NCBI GenBank assembly: GCA_017481825.1
Contig: JAFUOR010000064.1
Location: 1-54,677, forward strand
Reading direction: 5' to 3'
DNA length: 54,677 bases
Origin: Clostridia bacterium
Lineage (GTDB): Bacteria > Bacillota > Clostridia > Christensenellales > Aristaeellaceae
Under the pieces are notes generated by a model that did no database searches, was not told the origin of the DNA, and worked only from the letters and a program-made list of their open reading frames with translations. Numbering within the stretch: position 1 is the stretch's first letter; every line of letters starts with the position of its first letter. The translations under genes and the position numbers were made by a program. Shown piece after piece: positions 1 to 10,190 of the stretch.

Positions 1-47
1 CTCATTCGGAATTACTGTCTCTTGTTTGCGTTTCTTTGTTCTGTATC

Positions 48-60
48 GTTTTCAAGGTTC
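48..60 (-). promoter_or_regulatory. boxA-like leader element of a probable rRNA operon
   Basis: On the minus strand this reads GAACCTTGAAAAC, which resembles the boxA/leader sequences that precede 16S or 23S rRNA genes in Bacillota. It lies about 45 nt downstream of the strong leftward promoter at 104-132. The rRNA gene itself would lie outside the left edge, so this is an inference from position and sequence only. Confidence 0.45.
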
Positions 61-103
61 AGGCCGCCCCGCTTGGCTTCAGGCCGCGCGAGTCAGCTTG
101 TGT

Positions 104-132
104 ATCTTATCAAACTTCCGCCCCTTTGTCAA
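104..132 (-). promoter_or_regulatory. Strong sigma-A promoter with A-tract UP element, reading out of the window
   Basis: The minus strand shows a perfect -35 TTGACA (132-127), a 17-bp spacer and -10 TAAGAT (109-104). Just upstream (about 133-165) is an A/T-rich run with several A-tracts, as in UP elements of stable-RNA promoters. No ORF with a ribosome binding site follows before the left edge, which fits an rRNA or other stable-RNA operon. Confidence 0.75.
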
Positions 133-267
133 CACCTTTTTGAATCTTTTTTAAACTTTTTCACGTTCTTTTCAGAAACCCGAACCTTTCTCCCAAAAGT
201 CCTTCATCCAGCCATACAAACACGAACGTTTTTCTGTCGCATCATGTTCGTGTTTGCCATCAAATCA

Positions 268-295
268 AGGAACCCGGCATCAAGCCGGGTTCTTT
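268..295 (-). terminator. Terminator-like hairpin after the Eis-like gene
   Basis: A GC-rich stem (AACCCGGC / GCCGGGTT) with a five-base loop sits immediately past the stop codon of the acetyltransferase gene. The T-tract on the minus strand is weak. It is the likely end of the operon that begins near 8689. Confidence 0.65.
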
Positions 296-296
296 G

Positions 297-1481
297 TCAG
301 AAGTTCTCATTCATATGCAGCCTGCGCTGGGCAAACAACAGCTCAGCGAAACGCAAATTTTTGTTTCTCTTCACTTCTGCCATCCCTGCATTGATCGCAT
401 CGCCAAGACGCTCACGGCCAACAACCAATGCAGACAGGCCATTGATGCCGCAGCGCAGATCCGGTTCGGCGCGGTCATCCTTCTCCACCGTGATCGCGTA
501 TCCATCGCAGCGCACGGTGAAGCTGCCGCAGTTCTGCGCAATCTGCTCGTCCCTGACAGCAATGGTCACCGTGCCGGGCAGTGGCGGAGCAGGCAGCATG
601 GCCAGCGCCCGCTCAACGTTCATGACGCGCACCATCCCGGTGCAGGAGCCCTTCTCTTCCACATCGTAGGGCTCACGGGTCAGGTTGCGGGGTTCAAAAC
701 CGCTTTGGGCCTTGACGCGAATGGTTTCGAGCTCGTTCATACCGCGCAGCATGGCGAAGATGGCTTCAAGTCCCTGCTGGCACGTCCAGGCCATATCCTG
801 AATGGTCAGCGTGCAGCTGTATCCCTGCTTGTCCATCCTGCCGATCCAGTAAGCGGCCGGTTTGTCCGCAATCCGCAGAACATAGGCATGCTTGAGGCTG
901 TCCCAGGGCGTACCCCTGCGCAGATCGTTCCACATCCACTCGCTGCGGTGAAGCGCCAGATCCTTATCGGCGATGTACTGTTCGTACACAGCGTTCATCC
1001 CCTGATCGTCCTCTCCCGGAAGAACGCGTACGATCTCATCCGCCCCGCACAGATCGCTGCGGAGGGATTGCCGGCTGATTTCCGCATTCCGCCAGAACTC
1101 CGCCCATTCATAGCCGAATTTGCGGTAAAAGCAATGGCTGAAGGGATACAGCGCGCTGAACACATAGCCCTCCTGACAGAGTCTGGGCAGGCCTTCCTCA
1201 AAAAGGCGGCGAATGCCGCGCTGGCCGCGGCTTGTCGGATCAGTCACCACGCCGCCGATGCCCAGCAACTTCACGTCCGCCCCTTCAAAGCGGGCCGTGT
1301 AGGGAATCTGCATCATTGCACTGTGGAGCATGCCGTCTTCCCCAAAAACGCCCATGCGCTGGCGGAGCGCTTCCTCCGAAAGCACCTCAGGTGCAGATGT
1401 GTCGGTGTAGGTGTAGCAGATGGAGCACAGGTGCTTGTAGGCAAGCAGATCCTCATTGGTCATAGCGCGAATGATACTCAT
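297..1481 (-). CDS. Eis-like GNAT N-acetyltransferase with SCP2-type C-terminal domain
   Basis: A 394-residue protein of the Eis family. An N-terminal GNAT domain carries an acetyl-CoA loop of the form RGQRGI within the first 110 residues, a second GNAT-like half follows, and the last 110 residues form the sterol-carrier-like C-terminal domain (starting MVRVMNVERAL). Family members acetylate amines of small molecules or peptides; the substrate here is unknown. The start at 1481 was chosen over an upstream in-frame ATG because GAGGAG lies 8 nt before it. It is the last gene of the operon and follows the permease fusion by 39 bp. Its C-terminal domain is clearly related to the one fused to that permease, which suggests the two proteins act together. 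Cytoplasmic, no signal peptide. Confidence 0.82.
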   Translation of the reverse strand: MSIIRAMTNEDLLAYKHLCSICYTYTDTSAPEVLSEEALRQRMGVFGEDGMLHSAMMQIPYTARFEGADVKLLGIGGVVTDPTSRGQRGIRRLFEEGLPRLCQEGYVFSALYPFSHCFYRKFGYEWAEFWRNAEISRQSLRSDLCGADEIVRVLPGEDDQGMNAVYEQYIADKDLALHRSEWMWNDLRRGTPWDSLKHAYVLRIADKPAAYWIGRMDKQGYSCTLTIQDMAWTCQQGLEAIFAMLRGMNELETIRVKAQSGFEPRNLTREPYDVEEKGSCTGMVRVMNVERALAMLPAPPLPGTVTIAVRDEQIAQNCGSFTVRCDGYAITVEKDDRAEPDLRCGINGLSALVVGRERLGDAINAGMAEVKRNKNLRFAELLFAQRRLHMNENF

Positions 1482-1520
1482 ACACTTCTCCTCATTTGCA
1501 GCAGATGTTCTCATTATAGA

Positions 1521-3131
1521 TCACTTTCGGCCATACGTCAAATGGTGATCGAACATGCCGTCCATGGCGGGAGAGCGCATCTTCATGTCATAGCCCGCAT
1601 GGCTCTCCAGGAAATCAGCGAAGGTCTGATCGCCGTAAACGATATTGGCCAGCACCTGCACGGGCAACTGCAAATCCCAGTCGCGGTTGACCTCGCGGAT
1701 GGTCTTCACGCCATTTTGGCAGGCGATGTGCCAGCGCCCGTTATTTTGGGGAATGAGTTCATCCACAACCTCCAGCACAAAGCTGCCATCCCGCATGCCT
1801 GCCGGGAGCTGCTCCAGCACCCGGCGCACGTTGATGATGCGCACCATCGGCGCATCGGGCGCATCATGGCAAAGCACATATCCCAGCTCGCTCATGGCGA
1901 TGGGACGTGCCGCTGATACAGTTGAGACAATCACGCCTTCACGATACATCGCATGCAGACTTTCCGCCATACGCTCAGCGGATGTATGCCAGCGGGCGTA
2001 GAGGATCGCCAGCAGCACGCCCTCTGCCGCTGCGCAGCCCTGGGTCAGGAGCGTCAGCCAGCGAAGCCGCAACATCTCCGGCGTCCGCCATTCAACCATG
2101 ACCGCGGGAAGCTGCCACACGTTCCAGAATGCCGTGGCGATATCCTCCCATTCCACCAAAATGGCGGGAATCCACTCCGGGAAGGTATACACGGGCTGGA
2201 TGATATAGTTCATCAGCCAGGCCACCGCAATTGCACAGGCGCCATAGCCGATGGCAAACAGGAGCACCACACCGGTCACCTCCGGCATCATGCGGATGGC
2301 ATAGCGCACCTGCAGCTGCGCACGATAGCGCTTGGCATAGTAACGGACACGACCATTGAGCCAGCGGATGAGCCGCAGCACCAGCGTGATTCCCACCAGG
2401 AACAGCAGCACGCGCAGCCAGAGCCCGGCGCCCATGCTCTCTTTGCCCAAATCGTAGAGGGAGCCGCCCGCGCGCCAGTTCTCCACCACGGTCTCAAAGG
2501 AGACGTTCGCGCCCATTCCGGCGACGGGCACCGCCTCCACCAGCAGCGCATCCACCGTGAAATATTCATCAATCACCGCGTTCAGCGGCAGATATGCGCC
2601 ATAGTCCTGATTGTCGCCCACCTGCTTGCTGTGGCGGAGGATGCCGATCACCTCGCAGGTGATGCCGCCCACAGAAACCTCCCGGCCCAGCGGGTCCGCC
2701 ACACGGAAGAGCGTCAGGGCCAGCTGCTCGTCCAGCAGGATGACCTTGTCGCCCCGTTCGATTTCCTCCGTATAGGGCAGGCGGCCATATTGGAGATACA
2801 GTGGCCGCACCAGAAGGCCGTCCTCCCCGATCAGCTCCAGCCTGCCTGCCGCGCTGCCGGAGGAGGAAGAAAAGGCCGTACGCTCCACCACGCCGCCAGC
2901 CGTCCAACACTGCATGGTGGTGTCCCATTCAGAAGACTGCTCCTGCAGCTGCCTGACAGCGTCAGCAATGGGCTGATTGGGCTTGGCGTCCTCCCCCGAG
3001 GCCTGAGCCGGCGCAGGAACAATATACTGCATGTGGTTGCCCACCTGCTCGATCTCCCAAGCACCAAAGGCCAGTGCGATGGCAAAGCTCACAAGCAGCA
3101 GCCATTGCCACCAGGTGAAATGCTTCTTCAT
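1521..3131 (-). CDS. MacB/FtsX-like permease fused to an Eis-type C-terminal domain
   Basis: A 536-residue membrane protein with three parts. A first membrane helix (about 8-26) leads to an extracellular MacB-like core (about 30-230), recognisable from LLDEQLALTLF, DPLGREV and CEVIGIL at 132-165. Three more helices follow (about 236-256, 285-311, 359-379). Residues 427-520 then match the C-terminal domain of the neighbouring Eis-like enzyme: MVRIINVRRVLEQLPAG, DE.I.QN and a late G...FADFL segment. By topology this tail would be cytoplasmic. MacB/FtsX permeases normally need a LolD-type ATPase, and none is encoded nearby. The start overlaps the stop of the membrane-fusion gene (TGATG), implying translational coupling. 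Function is not known; a permease or sensor coupled to acetylation is my inference. Confidence 0.7.
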   Translation of the reverse strand: MKKHFTWWQWLLLVSFAIALAFGAWEIEQVGNHMQYIVPAPAQASGEDAKPNQPIADAVRQLQEQSSEWDTTMQCWTAGGVVERTAFSSSSGSAAGRLELIGEDGLLVRPLYLQYGRLPYTEEIERGDKVILLDEQLALTLFRVADPLGREVSVGGITCEVIGILRHSKQVGDNQDYGAYLPLNAVIDEYFTVDALLVEAVPVAGMGANVSFETVVENWRAGGSLYDLGKESMGAGLWLRVLLFLVGITLVLRLIRWLNGRVRYYAKRYRAQLQVRYAIRMMPEVTGVVLLFAIGYGACAIAVAWLMNYIIQPVYTFPEWIPAILVEWEDIATAFWNVWQLPAVMVEWRTPEMLRLRWLTLLTQGCAAAEGVLLAILYARWHTSAERMAESLHAMYREGVIVSTVSAARPIAMSELGYVLCHDAPDAPMVRIINVRRVLEQLPAGMRDGSFVLEVVDELIPQNNGRWHIACQNGVKTIREVNRDWDLQLPVQVLANIVYGDQTFADFLESHAGYDMKMRSPAMDGMFDHHLTYGRK

Positions 3132-4507
3132 CAGTTCACATACTCCATCACCGTCGCGCCGTCCTTCAGCGCGCGGTCTTCGCGGTCAGCAATCTGCTGC
3201 CAGGACAGGTCTTCCTCAATGGATACGACGCTGCTGCTCTTCTCGATCACCGTGACTGCCGTTTTCCGGATGGTCATCGTGGTCTGGGAAAGGAAGCCGC
3301 CGTACTGATTTTCAACGATGTAGACATAGTAATTCCCGCTGCCGTCATCGCGGACGCAGGAGGGGGAAAGCAGCGTCGTGGACTTCTTGGCGCGGTAGGT
3401 GATGCTCACATCCACGCCGCCGTCGCTGATAAAGGAGCGGATGGCCGCAGACTCCGTGCTGGCAAATTCCTCAGGAATGGGCAGCTGCAGATACTTCGTT
3501 CCGTCCTTCTCCGTCACGGTTTTCTCCACGGATGTGCGTTCCGTGCCGTAGGTTTCGCTGGTGATGTCCGCGCGGGTGCCGTCGGAGATCGTACGCTCGC
3601 TGTTTCCATCCAGCGGCGCGCGCAGCACGGGCATCGTGTCCTCCTTGTTCATCACGAAGGCCACAGCCGTACCGTCATAGGCATCGCCGTCGCTGACTTT
3701 CATTTCCACAATGTAGCCGTCCCGCGGTGCAACCACCTTCTGCAAGCTGGATTCCAGCATCGTCAGTTCGACCATCTTCTGATTCAGCTCGTCCAGCTCA
3801 TCCTGCAATTCGTTGCGCTTGACGATGTAGTTGAACGTTTCATCCTTCACGCGCAGCTGGCGATTATCCAGAATAGCAAAGTAGGCCGCCCGGGCGTCCT
3901 CGTAGGTCTTTTGAGCCGCCGCAGCCTTCGACACCGCAGCGCTCACCTCCGTGGAGGCACCGCCCAGCAGCGCGATCTGCTGGGGCCAGGTGGATACGTC
4001 GCCCGAAAGGGTCATTCCCTCCTGCGCAGCAGCAAAGCGCGCTTCATAGGTGGCGTCGGTCAGGTTGTCCTGAGCGGTGAGCATCTCATCGTAGAGGGTG
4101 TTCTGACGGCTCTCCTTGGAGAGCTTGCGGTTGCTCACATCCAGGTCAAGGAGCTCCTTGTTCTTGGTGTCATATTCCTCCCGGAGCTTCTCCATCTCCT
4201 CCTCATAGGACGGCGCCTTGGCCGTGAAAAGGGTCTCGCCCGCCTTCACATAATGGCCTGGCTTGACATACACACGATCCACCGTGATGGCCATATCCTC
4301 CGCCTCTTCCACGGTGAACTCCTCCGTTTCGGCAAAGTAGACCTCTGCCCGGAAGGTCATCTTCTCCTCAAAGCGGCCGGAGGACGCCGTGATGAGCTGC
4401 ACCTTGGGCGTGGTGATGGTCTGCACCGTGCGGGCAAAGAACATGCACAGCGCCACCGCCACAAACAGCGCGATCAGACCGCGCAGGGCAAAACGCTTCA
4501 GCTTCAT
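3131..4507 (-). CDS. HlyD/RND-type membrane-fusion (periplasmic adaptor) protein
   Basis: A 458-residue adaptor-type protein. One N-terminal membrane anchor (about 8-28) is followed by a first lipoyl half-motif (about 68-95, VKPGHYVKAGETLF), a long charged coiled-coil hairpin (about 100-265), a second lipoyl half (VVAPRDGYIVEMKVSDGD) and beta-rich C-terminal domains. In Gram-positive bacteria such proteins pair with MacB-like permeases to form extracellular parts of export machines. The next gene is exactly such a permease, with overlapping stop and start codons. The upstream permease gene ends 18 bp away. It may extend the permease outward; the substrate is unknown. Confidence 0.75.
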   Translation of the reverse strand: MKLKRFALRGLIALFVAVALCMFFARTVQTITTPKVQLITASSGRFEEKMTFRAEVYFAETEEFTVEEAEDMAITVDRVYVKPGHYVKAGETLFTAKAPSYEEEMEKLREEYDTKNKELLDLDVSNRKLSKESRQNTLYDEMLTAQDNLTDATYEARFAAAQEGMTLSGDVSTWPQQIALLGGASTEVSAAVSKAAAAQKTYEDARAAYFAILDNRQLRVKDETFNYIVKRNELQDELDELNQKMVELTMLESSLQKVVAPRDGYIVEMKVSDGDAYDGTAVAFVMNKEDTMPVLRAPLDGNSERTISDGTRADITSETYGTERTSVEKTVTEKDGTKYLQLPIPEEFASTESAAIRSFISDGGVDVSITYRAKKSTTLLSPSCVRDDGSGNYYVYIVENQYGGFLSQTTMTIRKTAVTVIEKSSSVVSIEEDLSWQQIADREDRALKDGATVMEYVN

Positions 4508-4525
4508 ATCAAATGTCGACCTCCG

Positions 4526-5413
4526 TCACTTCAGTTCGCTCAGCTGGATGCCGGCGACGATATCTTCCTGGAAATACAGATAAATCAGCAGCGTGGGCAG
4601 GATATACAACGCGCTGCCCGCAAAGGCCACATCAGCCCGATCGGTGCTGATCTGGTTGAACATGACCGACAGGGGCTGCATGTCCGTACGGTTGGCCAGA
4701 TAGACCAGCGGCTGCTCCACCATGTTCCAGCAATCGGCAAAGGACAGCGCCGCCGCCGCGCCGATGATGGGCTTGCACACCGGCAGAATCACATGCACAA
4801 ATCCGCGCACCGGGCCCACGCCATCCACCATGCCTGCCTCCAGCAGCTCGTTGGGGATGCTCACCATGAACTGGCGCAGGAGGAAAATGTAGAATGGCGA
4901 GAACCACATGGGCAAAATCACCGCCCAGGCCGTATCCATCAGCCCCAGCCATCTAAGCATGATGACGCTGGGCGCCATGGTCACCTGGAAGGGCAATATC
5001 ATCAGCACCAGAATGCAGAAGAACAGGAAGTCCCGCCCGCGGAACTGGAAGCGGCTCAGGCAGTAGGCTGTGAGCGGCACCACCAGCGCCTGACCGGCAA
5101 GGATGCCCGCCGTATACAGCATGCTGTTGCAGAACAGCTGCAGATAAGACGGCTCCTCGATAAAAATCTTGTAATACTGCCTGACCGAAAAGATCGCCGG
5201 GGAGAAAAGCACATCCAGCCACTTCTCCGCATCATAGCTGCCCCGTCCGCCCAGATACGCCTCAATCTCGCTCTGCGGGAAGAAGCTGTACAGGAATGTA
5301 AAGACGATCGGGATCAGAATGAGCGCTGACAGAGCCATCAGCAGGAGAAAGGATATCCTGCCGCCAAAGGAGAGCCTCCCCTGCCGGCGGCGAAAACATT
5401 TTTTGCGCGCCAT
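4526..5413 (-). CDS. Carbohydrate ABC transporter permease (MalG/AraQ-like)
   Basis: A 295-residue polytopic permease of the CUT1 type with about six membrane helices. A basic N-terminus precedes the first helix. The EAA loop that contacts the ATPase is visible as LLEAGMVDGVGPVRGFVHVI followed by LPVCKP. It starts 15 bp after the other permease, and together they would form the membrane pore for the upstream solute-binding protein. No ATPase is encoded in the operon, so a shared MsmX/UgpC-type ATPase from elsewhere is expected, as is common in Bacillota. Confidence 0.85.
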   Translation of the reverse strand: MARKKCFRRRQGRLSFGGRISFLLLMALSALILIPIVFTFLYSFFPQSEIEAYLGGRGSYDAEKWLDVLFSPAIFSVRQYYKIFIEEPSYLQLFCNSMLYTAGILAGQALVVPLTAYCLSRFQFRGRDFLFFCILVLMILPFQVTMAPSVIMLRWLGLMDTAWAVILPMWFSPFYIFLLRQFMVSIPNELLEAGMVDGVGPVRGFVHVILPVCKPIIGAAAALSFADCWNMVEQPLVYLANRTDMQPLSVMFNQISTDRADVAFAGSALYILPTLLIYLYFQEDIVAGIQLSELK

Positions 5414-5428
5414 AGCGAAGACCTCCTT

Positions 5429-6280
5429 TTATGTATTGGGCGAGCGCACGGCCTTGCTGGCATACATCATCGCAAAGAGCGCCATCACGCCCAGGGCGAA
5501 GAGGTAAGCCGCCGTGGTCACGTCCTGATAATCGAGCTTGGCAAACTTGTTGTTCATAAAATGCTGCAGGGTATAGATGGCCTCCGTCGGATAGGCGCCG
5601 CCGATGAAATAGACCTCCTTGAAAATCTTGAAGGCATTGACCCAGGCCAGCACAAACACGAGGAATGCCGTGGGCATGATCTGCGGCAGCGTGATGCGGA
5701 AGGACTGCGTCCACCAGCCCGCCCCCTCCAGGGAGGCATACTCATAGAGCGAGGGATGCACCGCCGCCAGCGCCGAGGCAAAGAGCACCACCGAAAAGCC
5801 CACGTTCTTCCAGATGTAAAGCAGCACGATGGGGAACCGCAGTGCATCGCCCTCCAGCCAGAGCACGCGCTCAAAGCCCATTTCCACCACCAGACGGTTG
5901 ATCACGCCGCCGTAATCAAACATCAGCGTCCAGATGAGCAGCATGGCAGAGGAAGGCATCAGGTAGGGCAGCAGCAGAATGTTGCGGAAGGCCGTCGATT
6001 TCTCCCTGAGCGTGCGCAGCATGGCAGCCAGAATAAACGCCAGCAGCCATATCACCGGCGCGCACAGGAGCGACAGCTCCCAGGTATTCTTCATGCCCAT
6101 CTGAAACATGGGGTTGTCAATGATCTGCCGATAATTCTCCAGCCCGACAAAGTTATTCTGGAACGATCCGTCCATCAGGGAAAAATAAACGCCCCCAAAA
6201 AACGGAATCACATAGAACATCATCAGGCCTGTCAGACCCGGCAGCAATAACAGCCACACGATCTTCTTTTTGCGAAACAT
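5429..6280 (-). CDS. Carbohydrate ABC transporter permease (MalF/UgpA-like)
   Basis: A 283-residue CUT1-type permease with six predicted helices. The EAA loop appears as YEYASLEGAGWWTQSFRITL followed by PQIMP. The start at 6280 (MFRKKK) is preferred over an ATG seven codons upstream because GGGAGG lies 6 nt before it. It follows the solute-binding gene by 72 bp and precedes its partner permease by 15 bp, so the three form the core of an importer. Confidence 0.85.
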   Translation of the reverse strand: MFRKKKIVWLLLLPGLTGLMMFYVIPFFGGVYFSLMDGSFQNNFVGLENYRQIIDNPMFQMGMKNTWELSLLCAPVIWLLAFILAAMLRTLREKSTAFRNILLLPYLMPSSAMLLIWTLMFDYGGVINRLVVEMGFERVLWLEGDALRFPIVLLYIWKNVGFSVVLFASALAAVHPSLYEYASLEGAGWWTQSFRITLPQIMPTAFLVFVLAWVNAFKIFKEVYFIGGAYPTEAIYTLQHFMNNKFAKLDYQDVTTAAYLFALGVMALFAMMYASKAVRSPNT

Positions 6281-6352
6281 GAGGCCTCCCATAAAATGCA
6301 AGGACGGACAGGCAGACGCATGCGCCCGCCCGTCCCTGCGAATTAACCAGGA

Positions 6353-8689
6353 TCAATAGTCTTCCATCTGCATCATGCGCAGCTTGCCGTCCGCCTCGCG
6401 GATGAACTGATCCAGCTTGATCTGTCCATCGAGATAGCGGTCGATGAGGGTTCGCAGTTCGCCCGAGCCCTCGTCATTCTGATCGATGACGCTGGGCAGA
6501 CGCACGCTCATCGCCGGTGCGAGAACGTTCACATAGTGCTCAATGGCAGCGGGGTGAATTTCGTACCGGTTCCTGGGCATTTCCTTCTCCATGTACTGCT
6601 TCTGGGCAGCAATGGAGTCCTCCAGATCCTTCTTGTCCGCCTCATCGGCCTCCGCCAGCATCTTCTCCAGCTCGTCAAGCCATTCCTGAGCGTTCTGCAC
6701 AAGCTCCTCGTAGTACTTGTACTCCACCGGCTCGGTCTCGCTCATGAGCAGGGTATGACGGTTGTTGTCGTACACCTCGTCCAGCTGCATTTCGATCAGC
6801 TTGATGGCGTATTCCGCATCGTCGCTGCGGGGATTGACGATGTAGAGGTTCATGTTCTCCACCTGGCAGAAATAATCCGTTCCCGCCGTGAGGGTCATGG
6901 GGATAAAGATGCGGTCACTGGTCTCCTCCATGTAGCCATTCCAGTTACCGATCAGGTTGGCGTCGTTCCAGATCAGGCCCTGCTTGTAATCAGAAACCTC
7001 CGGATCGGTGGACTTGGTTGAGGCGTCCAGGTCCTTGACCTCCATCTTTTCCAGCGCCGCCATCATCTCGCGGAAGATGGGATCGTCAAAGCGCAGCTCC
7101 ATATCATTGTGCTGGCAGTAGCCGATCCAACCCTCCAGCATGATATCGAACAGCTTCTGCTTATAGTCGCTGGTGTACTCCAGGAGGGAGTAGTTCGGGA
7201 AATCCTCGCAGAATTCGTCATTCCAGCGGGTGGCAAACTCGCACAGCTCCACGAGGTTCGTGGGCAGCTCCTCCGCGCTCAGGCCCATATCCTCCATGAC
7301 CTTTTTGTTGATGAACCAGCCGTCGTAGGAATAGGCGGTCACCGGTACGGCGTAGATCGCGCCATCTTTGGTCACCACATCCTTGAAGGCAGGGTACAGG
7401 TCATTGACATACGCACTGATCTTCTCGCTTGTAGACAGGTCAAGGCAGTAGCCCTTGTCCCTGAGAGTCTCAAAGGGCGCAGATTCGACGTACAGACGAA
7501 GCACATCCGGGGCTTCATCACCCGCGGACATCAGGCGATCGAATTCCTCCGCCGTAGACTGGCTGTCGTAGCCCTGCGTATACACGGGCACATCGGGATA
7601 CTGCTCGGCGAAGGCCTGCGTATCAACATAACCGCCAAAGAAATTGACGCTGTGCTCGGTGGTGAAGCCCTCCTTGAGCGTGCGGATACTGGTGGCCGTG
7701 TAGTTCATGGCAATGATGCTGTCACCCAGGAGTTCCAGCTCGCCGCTGCCATTCATCAGGAAACCATACTGCACGGCGGTCTTCATATCCTTCAGGCCCA
7801 TGATGCGGGAGCCTTCCACATAAAAGATGGTGTTGCTGTTCACATCGCAGACCACCTCGCCGCTGTTCAGCCAGTTAGTGCCGCTGAATTCGCCCAGCGT
7901 CGCGGTAATCTTATCCGCCGCCGGATCATAGGCCTGCATGATATAGGGCCGGTATTCGCCCGTCGCCTGGTCATATTCCGTCTCCGGGTCGCGGGAGAAC
8001 AGGAGCACCTGACCATCCTTGTAGGCCGTCATGGTATGCACATGCTCGGCGGAGGCCTTCTTGACGCTGCCGTCGGTCAGGTCAAAGGCATAAACCTCGT
8101 AGACCGTCTCGCGGCTGGCATTGTCCCAGCCGCTCTTGGACCAGAGCAGCTTTCCGCCCGCCATGACCACTGCCGTGGGATACTGATACCAGCGGTACTC
8201 CTCCTCCACCTGATACATGGGGGTGGTGTCCTTGAGGGTCACCACATCGGTGTAGTTGATCTTGCCATCAGCCACATCAATGGAGAAGACCAGGCCGCTC
8301 AGGTGATTGACGCTGTACAGCTTCTCGCCATCGGTAAAGATTTCGCCGATGGCATGCGCCATATCAGGCAGCGCGGACAATGCTCCGTCCTCCAGCAGAT
8401 ACTGATAGTGCTGCTCCATGGTTTCGAGGGAATCGTAGTTCTCCGCGTTGGCAAGGCCCTTGGCGAGGGGCTCAGCATCCGCCATGCCTTCCTTCCAGTG
8501 CCACAGCTCTGCGCCGCCGTCGGTATAGATACTGAAATAGGCCGTGTCGCCAATGGTCACCACAGCGCGCATCGAGCGCCAGTTCTCCTCATCCTCCTTG
8601 AGGATGGTCGCGTCCACCGCCAGCGCCGTGTTCATCATCAGCGCCAGCGTCAGGCAGAGGGTCAGCGTCCATAATATGATTCTCTTCAT
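6353..8689 (-). CDS. Extracellular solute-binding protein fused to an N-terminal propeller-like domain
   Basis: A 778-residue exported protein, about 350 residues longer than a usual family-1 sugar-binding protein. A signal peptide ends at TALA-VD and there is no lipobox cysteine, so attachment to the membrane is not explained. Residues about 30-330 contain repeated beta-strand units with YxVNxxSGLVFSID and YEVYAFDLTDGSVKK patterns, typical of WD40/PQQ-like propellers. The type-1 binding protein follows from about 335 (FFGGYVDTQAFAEQYPDV, later NKKVMEDMGL). A charged helical insert lies near 655-710. It is first in the operon with AAGGAG ahead of the start. The ligand cannot be read from sequence. 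Confidence 0.75.
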   Translation of the reverse strand: MKRIILWTLTLCLTLALMMNTALAVDATILKEDEENWRSMRAVVTIGDTAYFSIYTDGGAELWHWKEGMADAEPLAKGLANAENYDSLETMEQHYQYLLEDGALSALPDMAHAIGEIFTDGEKLYSVNHLSGLVFSIDVADGKINYTDVVTLKDTTPMYQVEEEYRWYQYPTAVVMAGGKLLWSKSGWDNASRETVYEVYAFDLTDGSVKKASAEHVHTMTAYKDGQVLLFSRDPETEYDQATGEYRPYIMQAYDPAADKITATLGEFSGTNWLNSGEVVCDVNSNTIFYVEGSRIMGLKDMKTAVQYGFLMNGSGELELLGDSIIAMNYTATSIRTLKEGFTTEHSVNFFGGYVDTQAFAEQYPDVPVYTQGYDSQSTAEEFDRLMSAGDEAPDVLRLYVESAPFETLRDKGYCLDLSTSEKISAYVNDLYPAFKDVVTKDGAIYAVPVTAYSYDGWFINKKVMEDMGLSAEELPTNLVELCEFATRWNDEFCEDFPNYSLLEYTSDYKQKLFDIMLEGWIGYCQHNDMELRFDDPIFREMMAALEKMEVKDLDASTKSTDPEVSDYKQGLIWNDANLIGNWNGYMEETSDRIFIPMTLTAGTDYFCQVENMNLYIVNPRSDDAEYAIKLIEMQLDEVYDNNRHTLLMSETEPVEYKYYEELVQNAQEWLDELEKMLAEADEADKKDLEDSIAAQKQYMEKEMPRNRYEIHPAAIEHYVNVLAPAMSVRLPSVIDQNDEGSGELRTLIDRYLDGQIKLDQFIREADGKLRMMQMEDY

Positions 8690-8858
8690 GGGATTCTCTC
8701 CTTCCGTTCCATACGCGGCGCGGATACGGCAAACGCCCCTCGGCCAGGTCGATCCCGTCCGGAGGAGCGCTGTCTGTCACGCACCGTCACCTATCAGACG
8801 GATGAGAGACTGGATTTGTTTCACTTTTCAGGAAATGTTTACAACTGTTACAATTGTA
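8690..8858. other. Intergenic region upstream of the transport operon
   Basis: This 169-bp gap carries the AAGGAG site of the solute-binding gene and an AT-richer part (about 8815-8858) with a direct repeat of TGTAAC/TGTAAA type on the minus strand. I could not assign a convincing -35/-10 pair. Confidence 0.3.
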
Positions 8859-9356
8859 TCATCGCAGCGCCGCGAGCTGCTCCTGCAGCGCCGTCAACGA
8901 GGCAGCCAGGTTGGTCTGCTCCTCGGTGATCACGCTGCCCACCGTCAGCTTATTGGAATAGCTGTCAATGATGGCATACAGGTTGGTGAAGGTCTCCACC
9001 GGCACAAGGTAGCCGCTGCCGCCATGCAAAGAGTTGTTCATCTCATTGATAACCTCCATCGCATGCACGCTGGCACGGATGCGGCCCAGAAGCGCAGCGG
9101 AATTGGAGCCGCCGTTCCGGCTCAGGGTATTCACCTGGCTGAGGGCGTCGCTGCACTCGGTCTGCATGCGGTTGACAAAGGTGTTTTCCGTATCGCTGCG
9201 GAAGGCCATGGCCTGCCCGCCGGTGATTCCCACACCCAGCAGCGCCACCGTCAGCAAAATCAGCGCAATGTTGCGGATGCGATCCAGCAGCGCCGAATCC
9301 GCTGCGCGCACACCCTCGCGCGGACGTGAATAACGCGTAGACCATTTGTCCATCAT
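8859..9356 (-). CDS. Single-pass membrane protein of unknown function
   Basis: A 165-residue protein. A basic N-terminus is followed by one hydrophobic helix (about 28-50), then a polar extracellular part rich in Ser, Asn and Thr with helical, heptad-like stretches. The architecture recalls small four-helix-bundle sensor ectodomains, but I do not recognise the family. The start was set at the first of two adjacent ATGs, 8 nt after GGAGG. It has its own promoter (9400-9428) and is divergent from the forespore operon. Role unknown. Confidence 0.6.
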   Translation of the reverse strand: MMDKWSTRYSRPREGVRAADSALLDRIRNIALILLTVALLGVGITGGQAMAFRSDTENTFVNRMQTECSDALSQVNTLSRNGGSNSAALLGRIRASVHAMEVINEMNNSLHGGSGYLVPVETFTNLYAIIDSYSNKLTVGSVITEEQTNLAASLTALQEQLAALR

Positions 9357-9399
9357 AACAAAAACCTCCATAAAAACAGAAGCGATGGTTGACGCCCTC

Positions 9400-9428
9400 A
9401 TCTTATCACAATTCTTTGTTTGCGTAAA
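9400..9428 (-). promoter_or_regulatory. Sigma-A promoter of the small membrane protein gene
   Basis: Minus strand: -35 TTTACG (9428-9423), 17-bp spacer, -10 TAAGAT (9405-9400). The gene starts about 45 bp downstream at 9356. Confidence 0.55.
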
Positions 9429-9443
9429 GGCGAACAGGCCTCT

Positions 9444-9494
9444 TTGCACGATGTTTGAGAGAACTGTATAAACCTTGCCCCTCCCGGACATGCT
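9444..9494 (+). promoter_or_regulatory. Overlapping sigma-A-like and forespore-type promoters of the spoIIR operon
   Basis: A sigma-A-like pair TTGCAC (9444-9449), 17 bp, TATAAA (9467-9472) overlaps a second pair GTATAA (9466-9471), 17 bp, CATGCT (9489-9494). The second resembles the sigma-G/sigma-F consensus, which would fit genes needed in the forespore. The leader to 9627 (about 130 nt) contains several short GC-rich inverted repeats of no known class. Confidence 0.45.
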
Positions 9495-9626
9495 CTTTTT
9501 AGGAATTATGACCCGTACAGGCCGTGAGGCGTAAGCCTGAGCAAGGCAGTCCACGACCTGCAGCAGGCAAGCGCTGCCAGTGCCGCCCATGCCAGTGAGG
9601 GCCTAAAAAAAGGAGGGTACTGCCAC

Positions 9627-10190
9627 ATGATCACCACCATCGTTAGCCTTTTGGCTGCTGCAACGATCTTCTTTTCCACTTCGATCTCCGCACAGGATAT
9701 CACCACCTGGCAGCTGAAAACCGGCTACCGGCTACGCATGCACGTCGTGGCTCACGATGACACAGAGGAAATGCAGCGCATCAAGCTCTGCGTCCGCGAT
9801 GCGGTGCAGGCCTGCTATACCCAGAATGCGCCCGCCTCCGGCACCTCATTGCAAAAGACCCGCGCCATCCTGCCGGAGCTGACGGAGGCAGCCACTGCCG
9901 CCGCCCGCGCCGAGGGCTTCACCGGCGATGTGGCGGTGACGCTGGAAACCTGCTACTTCGATGACCGCGAGCTGTCCACCATGACGATTCCCGCAGGCGA
10001 TTACCCGGCGCTGATGATTCGCCTGGGCGATGCGCAGGGGCAGAACTGGTGGGGGCTGATCGATCCCCTATTGTCCCTGTGGTGCGCCCGCGTACCGGAT
10101 ATGGAAGCAGAGCCCATCACCTGGGACTGGTCATGGCAGGCCTTCATCGCCGCCCTGACAGGCCGCACACTGGCGGAGGTGTCGTTCTAA
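9627..10190 (+). CDS. spoIIR: Stage II sporulation protein R (SpoIIR)
   Basis: A 187-residue exported signalling protein. An N-terminal signal sequence is followed by the family signature RMHVVAHDDTEEMQRIKLCV then RDAV, and by GQNWWGL with LWC near residues 144-155. In known sporulators SpoIIR is made in the forespore and triggers SpoIIGA to process pro-sigma-E in the mother cell. The start is set by AAAGGAGGG upstream of the ATG. It is the first gene of the forespore operon and ends one base before sleB. Confidence 0.9.
   Translation: MITTIVSLLAAATIFFSTSISAQDITTWQLKTGYRLRMHVVAHDDTEEMQRIKLCVRDAVQACYTQNAPASGTSLQKTRAILPELTEAATAAARAEGFTGDVAVTLETCYFDDRELSTMTIPAGDYPALMIRLGDAQGQNWWGLIDPLLSLWCARVPDMEAEPITWDWSWQAFIAALTGRTLAEVSF

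Follow-up and report, generated by a model that had tools for sequence, protein, structure and literature searches.

A candidate CUT1 importer operon with a conserved membrane-fusion protein and a MacB core-domain protein in Clostridia

INTRODUCTION

An operon that joins the parts of an ATP-binding cassette (ABC) importer to those of an exporter, and that encodes an ATPase for neither, raises the question of whether it specifies one machine or two and of what would power it. We address this question for six minus-strand genes at positions 297-8689 of the window, a 54,677-nucleotide stretch at the start of contig C25 (JAFUOR010000064.1) of a Clostridia bacterium genome in the family Aristaeellaceae (assembly GCA_017481825.1; 3.16 Mb in 163 contigs, 91% complete and 5.4% contaminated). 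A sequence-only reading of this stretch had proposed that the genes form one unit of importer and exporter-type parts, a non-standard arrangement, and that this unit might be a sensing or modification machine at the membrane rather than an importer. Gene calls and domain matches confirmed the six genes, their strand and order, and the absence of an ATPase from the block; ABC_tran matches on the window contig lie only near 31 and 52 kb. We argue that the block probably encodes a CUT1 importer, powered by MsmX, that carries a decoupled extracytoplasmic module derived from MacA/MacB and whose imported ligands are probably oligosaccharides.

The genes of the block are listed below in their order on the minus strand. 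From the first gene onward they are separated by 51-72 bp (depending on the start codon), 15, 18, -1, and 6 bp.

6353..8689, minus strand: solute-binding protein (SBP), 778 amino acids, with a signal peptide and an SBP_bac_8/SBP_bac_1 domain at 358-588 (E 1.2e-9)
5429..6301, minus strand: CUT1 permease a (CUTa), UgpA-like, BPD_transp_1, EAA loop EYASLEGAG...ITLPQ; the start is TTG, with alternative in-frame ATGs at 6292 and 6280
4526..5413, minus strand: CUT1 permease b (CUTb), UgpE-like, BPD_transp_1, EAA loop EAGMVDGVG...ILPVCKP
3131..4507, minus strand: membrane-fusion/adaptor protein (MFP), 458 amino acids, with a single N-terminal membrane helix; matches Pfam HlyD and NCBIfam CzcB, RND_mfp, and EmrA, each below its curated cutoff
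1521..3131, minus strand: MacB/FtsX-like protein with a periplasmic core domain (PCD), 536 amino acids; MacB_PCD at 97-199, four predicted membrane helices, and an SCP2_2 tail at 435-506
297..1514, minus strand: Eis-type GNAT acetyltransferase, 405 amino acids; Acetyltransf_9 and SCP2_2, with the C-terminal Phe kept

RESULTS AND DISCUSSION

A five-gene core is conserved in close relatives

We assembled two overlapping sets of loci from close relatives of the window. Searched with the MacB-like protein, 118 of 200 genomes from the window's family gave a match, some through the Eis-like SCP2 region alone; we took 40 of these for neighborhood analysis. Scanning named genome contigs with an MFP alignment gave 72 loci, 20 of which were shared with the first set by their MFP. 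The titles of these contigs refer to uncultured Clostridia, Clostridiales, and Eubacteriales, including "Candidatus Pullichristensenella," Ventricola, Faecivicinus, and Alectryocaccomicrobium, and some of them may lie outside the window's family. The two sets comprise 91 distinct close loci, the window included, and gene adjacency and ATPase presence were counted over 110 loci. Two loci with a truncated MFP (L139 and L142) were excluded from the adjacency count, and three (L048, L060, and L109) were scored as misses owing to merged or split frames.

Across the 91 distinct close loci, the conserved unit consists of five genes in the order SBP-CUTa-CUTb-MFP-PCD protein. The gene for the MacB-like protein lies next to that for the MFP at 40/40 and 66/67 testable loci in the two sets, respectively; the corresponding values are 38/40 and 69/69 for CUTb, 36/38 and 64/64 for CUTa, and 29/34 and 50/56 for the SBP. 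Because this order is conserved across loci, chance grouping of the genes can be excluded. The MFP is present in 91/200 family genomes and in 35/50 genera (E 1e-20), and the genes downstream of the block vary, with UvrC, an MFS transporter, an aldolase, and a response regulator among those scanned. The proposal of a single unit joining importer and exporter-type parts is supported, as the order is conserved in the 91 close loci and in 36 distant loci described below. Relatives carrying the two halves independently were not seen in the 110 loci, within searches that started from the MFP or the MacB-like protein and to which a lone CUT half would be invisible.

The sixth gene fared differently. 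An acetyltransferase lies beside the block in only 4/91 distinct close loci (the window, L031, L032, and L033), a count that covers close loci only and in which some of the other loci end at contig ends; in L035 and L037 the block runs directly toward a 16S rRNA gene with no acetyltransferase. The acetyltransferase is outside the core and is a lineage-specific addition, so that the supposed six-gene unit is reduced to its five-gene core.

The block occurs elsewhere in Bacillota

The first 14 out-of-family Clostridia hits, all weak, comprised 10 loci with the CUT-MFP order, 3 with a canonical MFP-ATPase-FtsX order, and 1 with neither (L204). We then searched a second MFP profile, A7, in 391 genomes of the class and 398 of the phylum. 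A7 is partly a general MFP profile, matching 224/391 class and 331/398 phylum genomes at 1e-9. When whole frames were scored at 58 A7 loci, all 36 above 190 bits were of the block type (the window and one family member included). A CUT permease lies within the 1.5-kb flanks of 35 of these 36, and at the last one (L234) both CUT permeases lie further downstream in a longer stretch (L278). Of the 22 loci below 140 bits, 8 are canonical and none has a CUT permease.

Stretches above 190 bits in the A7 search come from 28 out-of-family genomes of the class and two outside it (G726 and G894). Three further genomes from outside the class (G923, G736, and G786) were listed at 150-169 bits and score 258-265 bits for the whole frame. 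These 33, together with two lower-scoring genomes for which longer stretches were taken (G556 and G364), make up a distant set of 36 loci in 35 genomes. Most class matches between 140 and 190 bits fall outside this count, and the block may be more common than counted. Within the distant set, CUTb was found in 34 loci, CUTa in 34, and the PCD protein in 35.

The solute-binding protein and permeases are of the CUT1 importer type

The block encodes the SBP_bac_1/8-type SBP and the two different BPD_transp_1 permeases with EAA loops that are expected of a CUT1 importer. A profile of 55 relatives of the SBP matches structures of sugar-binding SBPs. Its N-terminal region is beta-propeller-like, with profile positions 159-289 matching beta-propeller surface-layer proteins (E about 5e-5), and one distant SBP has a weak PQQ_2 match at the same region. 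Several close relatives encode two or three SBPs in tandem, as would be expected if a single dock serves several binders. Read by eye, a lipobox seems to be absent from the SBPs of the close set, whose signal peptides look plain (6353-8689 in the window), and several distant ones (L272, L275, and L277) have a lipobox-like Cys motif at their start.

By inspection, the EAA loops are kept in 41/41 CUTa and 41/41 CUTb proteins of the close set, counting those of the window. All aligned permeases of the distant set (34 CUTa and 35 CUTb) have a recognizable loop, although its Gly is replaced (EN, EK, or ES) in 7/34 CUTa proteins; our first EAA pattern, which was too strict about the final LP, had matched 5/34 and 30/35 of these permeases, respectively. 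Since the loops are kept in both permeases, the permeases look built for being driven by an ATPase.

A candidate importer ATPase is encoded elsewhere in the genome, and ATPases of its type lie beside some distant blocks

Using six query types, we found an ATPase in the block, or within 500 bp of it on the same strand, at 0/110 close loci. Ten of the 110 have an ATPase somewhere in the fetched stretch; the nearest, in L050, is encoded on the opposite strand at a distance of 87 bp. The lone MsmX-like ATPase that the sequence-only reading suggested looking for was found: an orphan protein encoded elsewhere in the genome has ABC_tran, OB_MalK, and TOBE_2 domains and passes the UgpC cutoff, which makes it MsmX/UgpC type. 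Close homologues (E 1e-120 or better) occur in 177/200 family genomes and in 100/103 good genomes. No CUT permease lies beside MsmX in flanks of up to about 1.5 kb at the 30 loci fetched. MsmX also occurs in genomes without the block and would thus be a shared part. In Bacillus subtilis, a shared MsmX energizes several sugar importers that lack their own ATPase (PMC7658222).

In the distant set, 8/36 blocks have an ATPase on their own strand no more than 400 bp away, and all 8 are of the MsmX type, scoring 436-476 bits to the MsmX of the window genome versus 87-94 bits to LolD; the four that were scanned all exceed the UgpC cutoff. In seven cases the ATPase gene either overlaps the block's last gene or is at most 12 bp from it, and in the eighth the distance is 277 bp. 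Because the eight loci represent 7 genomes and 4 families, they are not all independent. Taken with the SBP and the permeases, the type of ATPase, where one is present, indicates that the unit works like a CUT1 importer.

One further gene pair was seen near the orphan MsmX. A canonical MFP-FtsX pair with an intact FtsX domain and no LolD gene lies directly upstream of it (L155:8490-11999; G000:C73), and a canonical FtsX gene precedes MsmX in 8/30 loci fetched, 7 of these 8 in the window's genus.

The MacB-like protein keeps the core domain without recognizable coupling sites

MacB_PCD was matched by 27/27 block members scanned, and the FtsX permease domain (PF02687) by 0/27 at E 0.1. Profile comparison aligns the block family with canonical FtsX over the PCD and transmembrane region (probability 97.9), and the solved structural relatives of the MacB-like protein include MacB and YknZ. 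The coupling helices of MacB are in the loop between transmembrane helices 2 and 3 and at the C terminus after helix 4 (PMC8277102). Patterns for these two coupling helices (CH1 and CH2), which we wrote from canonical FtsX proteins of the same genome family and which match 9/9 and 8/9 of that set, respectively, were found in 0/64 block members. The strict CH1 and CH2 patterns likewise match 0/35 PCD proteins of the distant set, with a single loose CH1 match (L289).

Among these 35 distant proteins, 17 have two predicted helices, 16 have four to six, and two have one or three, as counted by crude hydropathy. With only two helices in 17/35 proteins, conservation extends to the core domain but not to a type VII permease. 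MacB_PCD was the sole match in the seven distant PCD proteins scanned (five and later two), with one of the first five under the curated cutoff. The block thus resembles the type VII systems MacAB and YknWXYZ in having an MFP and a membrane protein with a MacB periplasmic core domain. It differs from them in lacking PF02687 with CH1 and CH2 and a LolD/MacB-type ATPase in or beside the block (an unlinked copy is possible), and in being tied to importer permeases. With the defining features of the exporter absent, what remains of it is the extramembrane adaptor and the core domain.

Weighing one machine against its alternatives

The alternative that survives best holds that the operon encodes two machines: an MsmX-powered CUT1 importer and, distinct from it, an MFP-FtsX exporter served by a LolD-type ATPase encoded elsewhere, with cotranscription pairing uptake and efflux of the same compound. 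The MFP and MacB_PCD are exporter parts, and the window's genus has a second MFP-FtsX pair with no adjacent LolD gene, so ATPase-less pairs do exist. Among the ten highest-scoring LolD-like matches of the genome (176 bits or more), seven adjoin an FtsX match and one, by eye, belongs to an apparent amino acid importer; either of the other two might be such an ATPase. However, the FtsX domain and coupling motifs were not found in the block members tested, and two predicted helices, as in 17/35 distant PCD proteins, are too few for a type VII permease. Moreover, none of the 36 distant blocks has a LolD-type ATPase on its strand within 400 bp; that of L199 is 4.3 kb away, next to its own FtsX-type frame. 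We therefore consider two machines unlikely.

It is more doubtful still that MsmX drives both halves, with the MacB-like protein as its partner in complexes other than those with the CUT permeases. The tight placement of the in-block ATPase against the last gene in 7/8 cases could be cited for such a role, as could the canonical FtsX gene upstream of the orphan MsmX in 8/30 loci. Yet an ATPase that acts on the permeases would be just as likely to be adjacent, a spacer of roughly 180-370 bp lies between the canonical FtsX gene and MsmX, and no coupling surface can be recognized in the MacB-like protein. Type I and type VII coupling surfaces also differ. Least probable of all is the proposal of the sequence-only reading, under which a ligand would be sensed or modified at the membrane by the SBP, the permease-like proteins, and the acetyltransferase but not transported. 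Although the block has no ATPase and the window lineage combines an acetyltransferase with an SCP2 fusion, the retained EAA loops, the importer ATPase in 8/36 distant blocks, and the rarity of the acetyltransferase beside the block (4/91 distinct close loci) leave it unsupported.

Several observations count against an MsmX-powered importer with a decoupled module. The coupling motifs were judged lost from sequence patterns, and a diverged interface could still bind an ATPase. The two remaining LolD-like matches lie on contig C7 in longer frames, and an orphan LolD-like ATPase, which the sequence-only reading had also suggested looking for, is possible. As for MsmX, paralogues may account for the weaker matches (about 1e-120 to 1e-140), and homologues also occur in family genomes without the block, so the distribution is compatible with the pairing but does not prove it. 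The SBP was undetected in its place at 5/34 and 6/56 testable loci in the two close sets, where some SBPs are longer or diverged, and the gene in front of the block in L042 is, by eye, not an SBP. Finally, ten scanned neighboring genes gave no consistent sugar signal for a ligand. We nevertheless regard the importer with a decoupled module as the probable solution.

An SCP2 tail and an acetyltransferase mark the window lineage

In the lineage of the window, a 150-residue tail with an SCP2_2 domain replaces the second coupling helix of the MacB-like protein; by topology, this tail is cytoplasmic. It occurs in 7/27 members (window included) from four genera, and its SCP2 region is 28% identical to that of the neighboring acetyltransferase. 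An assembly chimera was rejected as the source of the fusion on the basis of this distribution and low identity. In some comparisons the tail (1521-2000 in the window) is closer to other Eis proteins than to its neighbor.

The sixth gene itself has the hallmarks of an Eis-type enzyme, with a GNAT domain, an SCP2-like C-terminal domain, and a C-terminal Phe (4/4). In Eis, the carboxylate of the C-terminal Phe is catalytic. The product of the sixth gene shares Acetyltransf_9, SCP2_2, and a C-terminal Phe with Eis-type GNAT enzymes, and the tail of the MacB-like protein resembles the Eis C-terminal part; here, in contrast, the context is a transporter operon and an SCP2 tail is fused to a membrane protein. 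The window lineage would have a truncated Eis-like C-terminal part fused to the PCD protein on its cytoplasmic side, followed by a gene for an intact Eis-type enzyme. Speculatively, the SCP2 tail may hold the enzyme at the complex, and the acetyltransferase, held at the membrane, may acetylate incoming substrate or regulate the complex. Speaking against this idea, the tail is present in L034 and L037 although no acetyltransferase gene follows there.

Hairpins, the contig end, and the neighboring rRNA operon

Three features other than the six genes were annotated in and around the block:

6298..6339, minus strand: intercistronic hairpin of 17 pairs between the SBP gene and the first permease gene; probable stabilizer or attenuator
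270..292, minus strand: terminator-like hairpin of 9 pairs, 3' of the acetyltransferase stop, which closes the block
8859..9356, minus strand: small one-helix membrane protein upstream of the block, a possible seventh gene with an uncertain start codon

The 17-bp stem between the SBP and permease genes has a weak U tail. Stems of different sequence are found at the same position in the three relatives folded (L031, L032, and L037), which makes a stabilizer or attenuator likelier than a full stop and suggests that the hairpin serves dosage control and does not split the operon. An Rfam search of window positions 1-9700 at E 0.1 gave no riboswitch match.

Beyond the block, window positions 1-296 contain a promoter-like TTGACA/TAAGAT and sequence resembling the 16S rRNA leader of relatives, and in L031, L035, and L037 Rfam places the 16S rRNA start 0.3-0.4 kb beyond the block's final gene. 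An artifact of the contig end was therefore ruled out as the cause of the absent ATPase, as the block closes with a hairpin followed by an rRNA leader, and a hidden block gene beyond the contig end is not likely. The block was observed directly upstream of an rRNA operon in the window's genus and in some relatives, which would explain frequent contig breaks there.

The small membrane protein at 8859-9356 has no Pfam match. It is similar in six aligned loci (window, L031, L033, L034, L037, and L038) and was not seen at the equivalent place in L032 or L035. In another relative (L065:12297-15999), the region directly upstream of the SBP gene encodes a second MFP together with a low-complexity secreted protein rich in Pro, Thr, and Glu. 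Frames similar in size occur in L064, L066, L067, and L070, and the protein is of low complexity, by eye, in L067 and L070.

A proposed importer with a passive outer module

In our preferred scheme, the orphan MsmX/UgpC protein encoded elsewhere would act on the permeases of the window, and the MFP and PCD protein would do no ATP-driven work. These two proteins may instead assemble into a passive ring or dock on the outer side of the membrane, where the beta-propeller-extended SBP would be received; alternatively, the module could guide large ligands through the wall to the mouth of the permease. The nearest known counterparts are CUT1-family importers powered by a shared MsmX/MsmK, such as AraNPQ, GanSPQ, and MdxEFG of B. 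subtilis, which resemble the block in having an SBP, two EAA-loop permeases, no adjacent ATPase, and an orphan UgpC/MsmX (PMC7658222). In contrast to these importers, the block adds a fixed MFP and MacB-PCD protein, and its SBPs have an N-terminal beta-propeller-like region.

The cell envelope bears on what the MFP could contact. Omp85 was found in 0/7 genomes tested, and the control gave a signal in 7/14. A diderm host with an outer membrane partner for the MFP is therefore unsupported, and with Omp85 absent from all seven, the host is probably monoderm. A literature search found no description of an MFP and a MacB core-domain protein joined to a CUT1 importer, although most subscription journals were outside its scope and this is weak evidence of absence.

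Somewhat short of an even chance is how we rate the broader proposal that the block represents a widespread new ABC importer architecture in Bacillota, in which a type I sugar importer would have a fixed MacA-like adaptor ring and an uncoupled MacB core as a dock or conduit through the thick wall, the outer half of an exporter having been captured and playing a passive part in import. If this is true, the adaptor and MacB core that are thought to define tripartite export would also serve import in single-membrane bacteria, and the MacB core domain would work without its ATPase. It would also give a purpose to the orphan MFP and FtsX-like genes that Clostridia of the gut and rumen carry next to sugar ABC genes.

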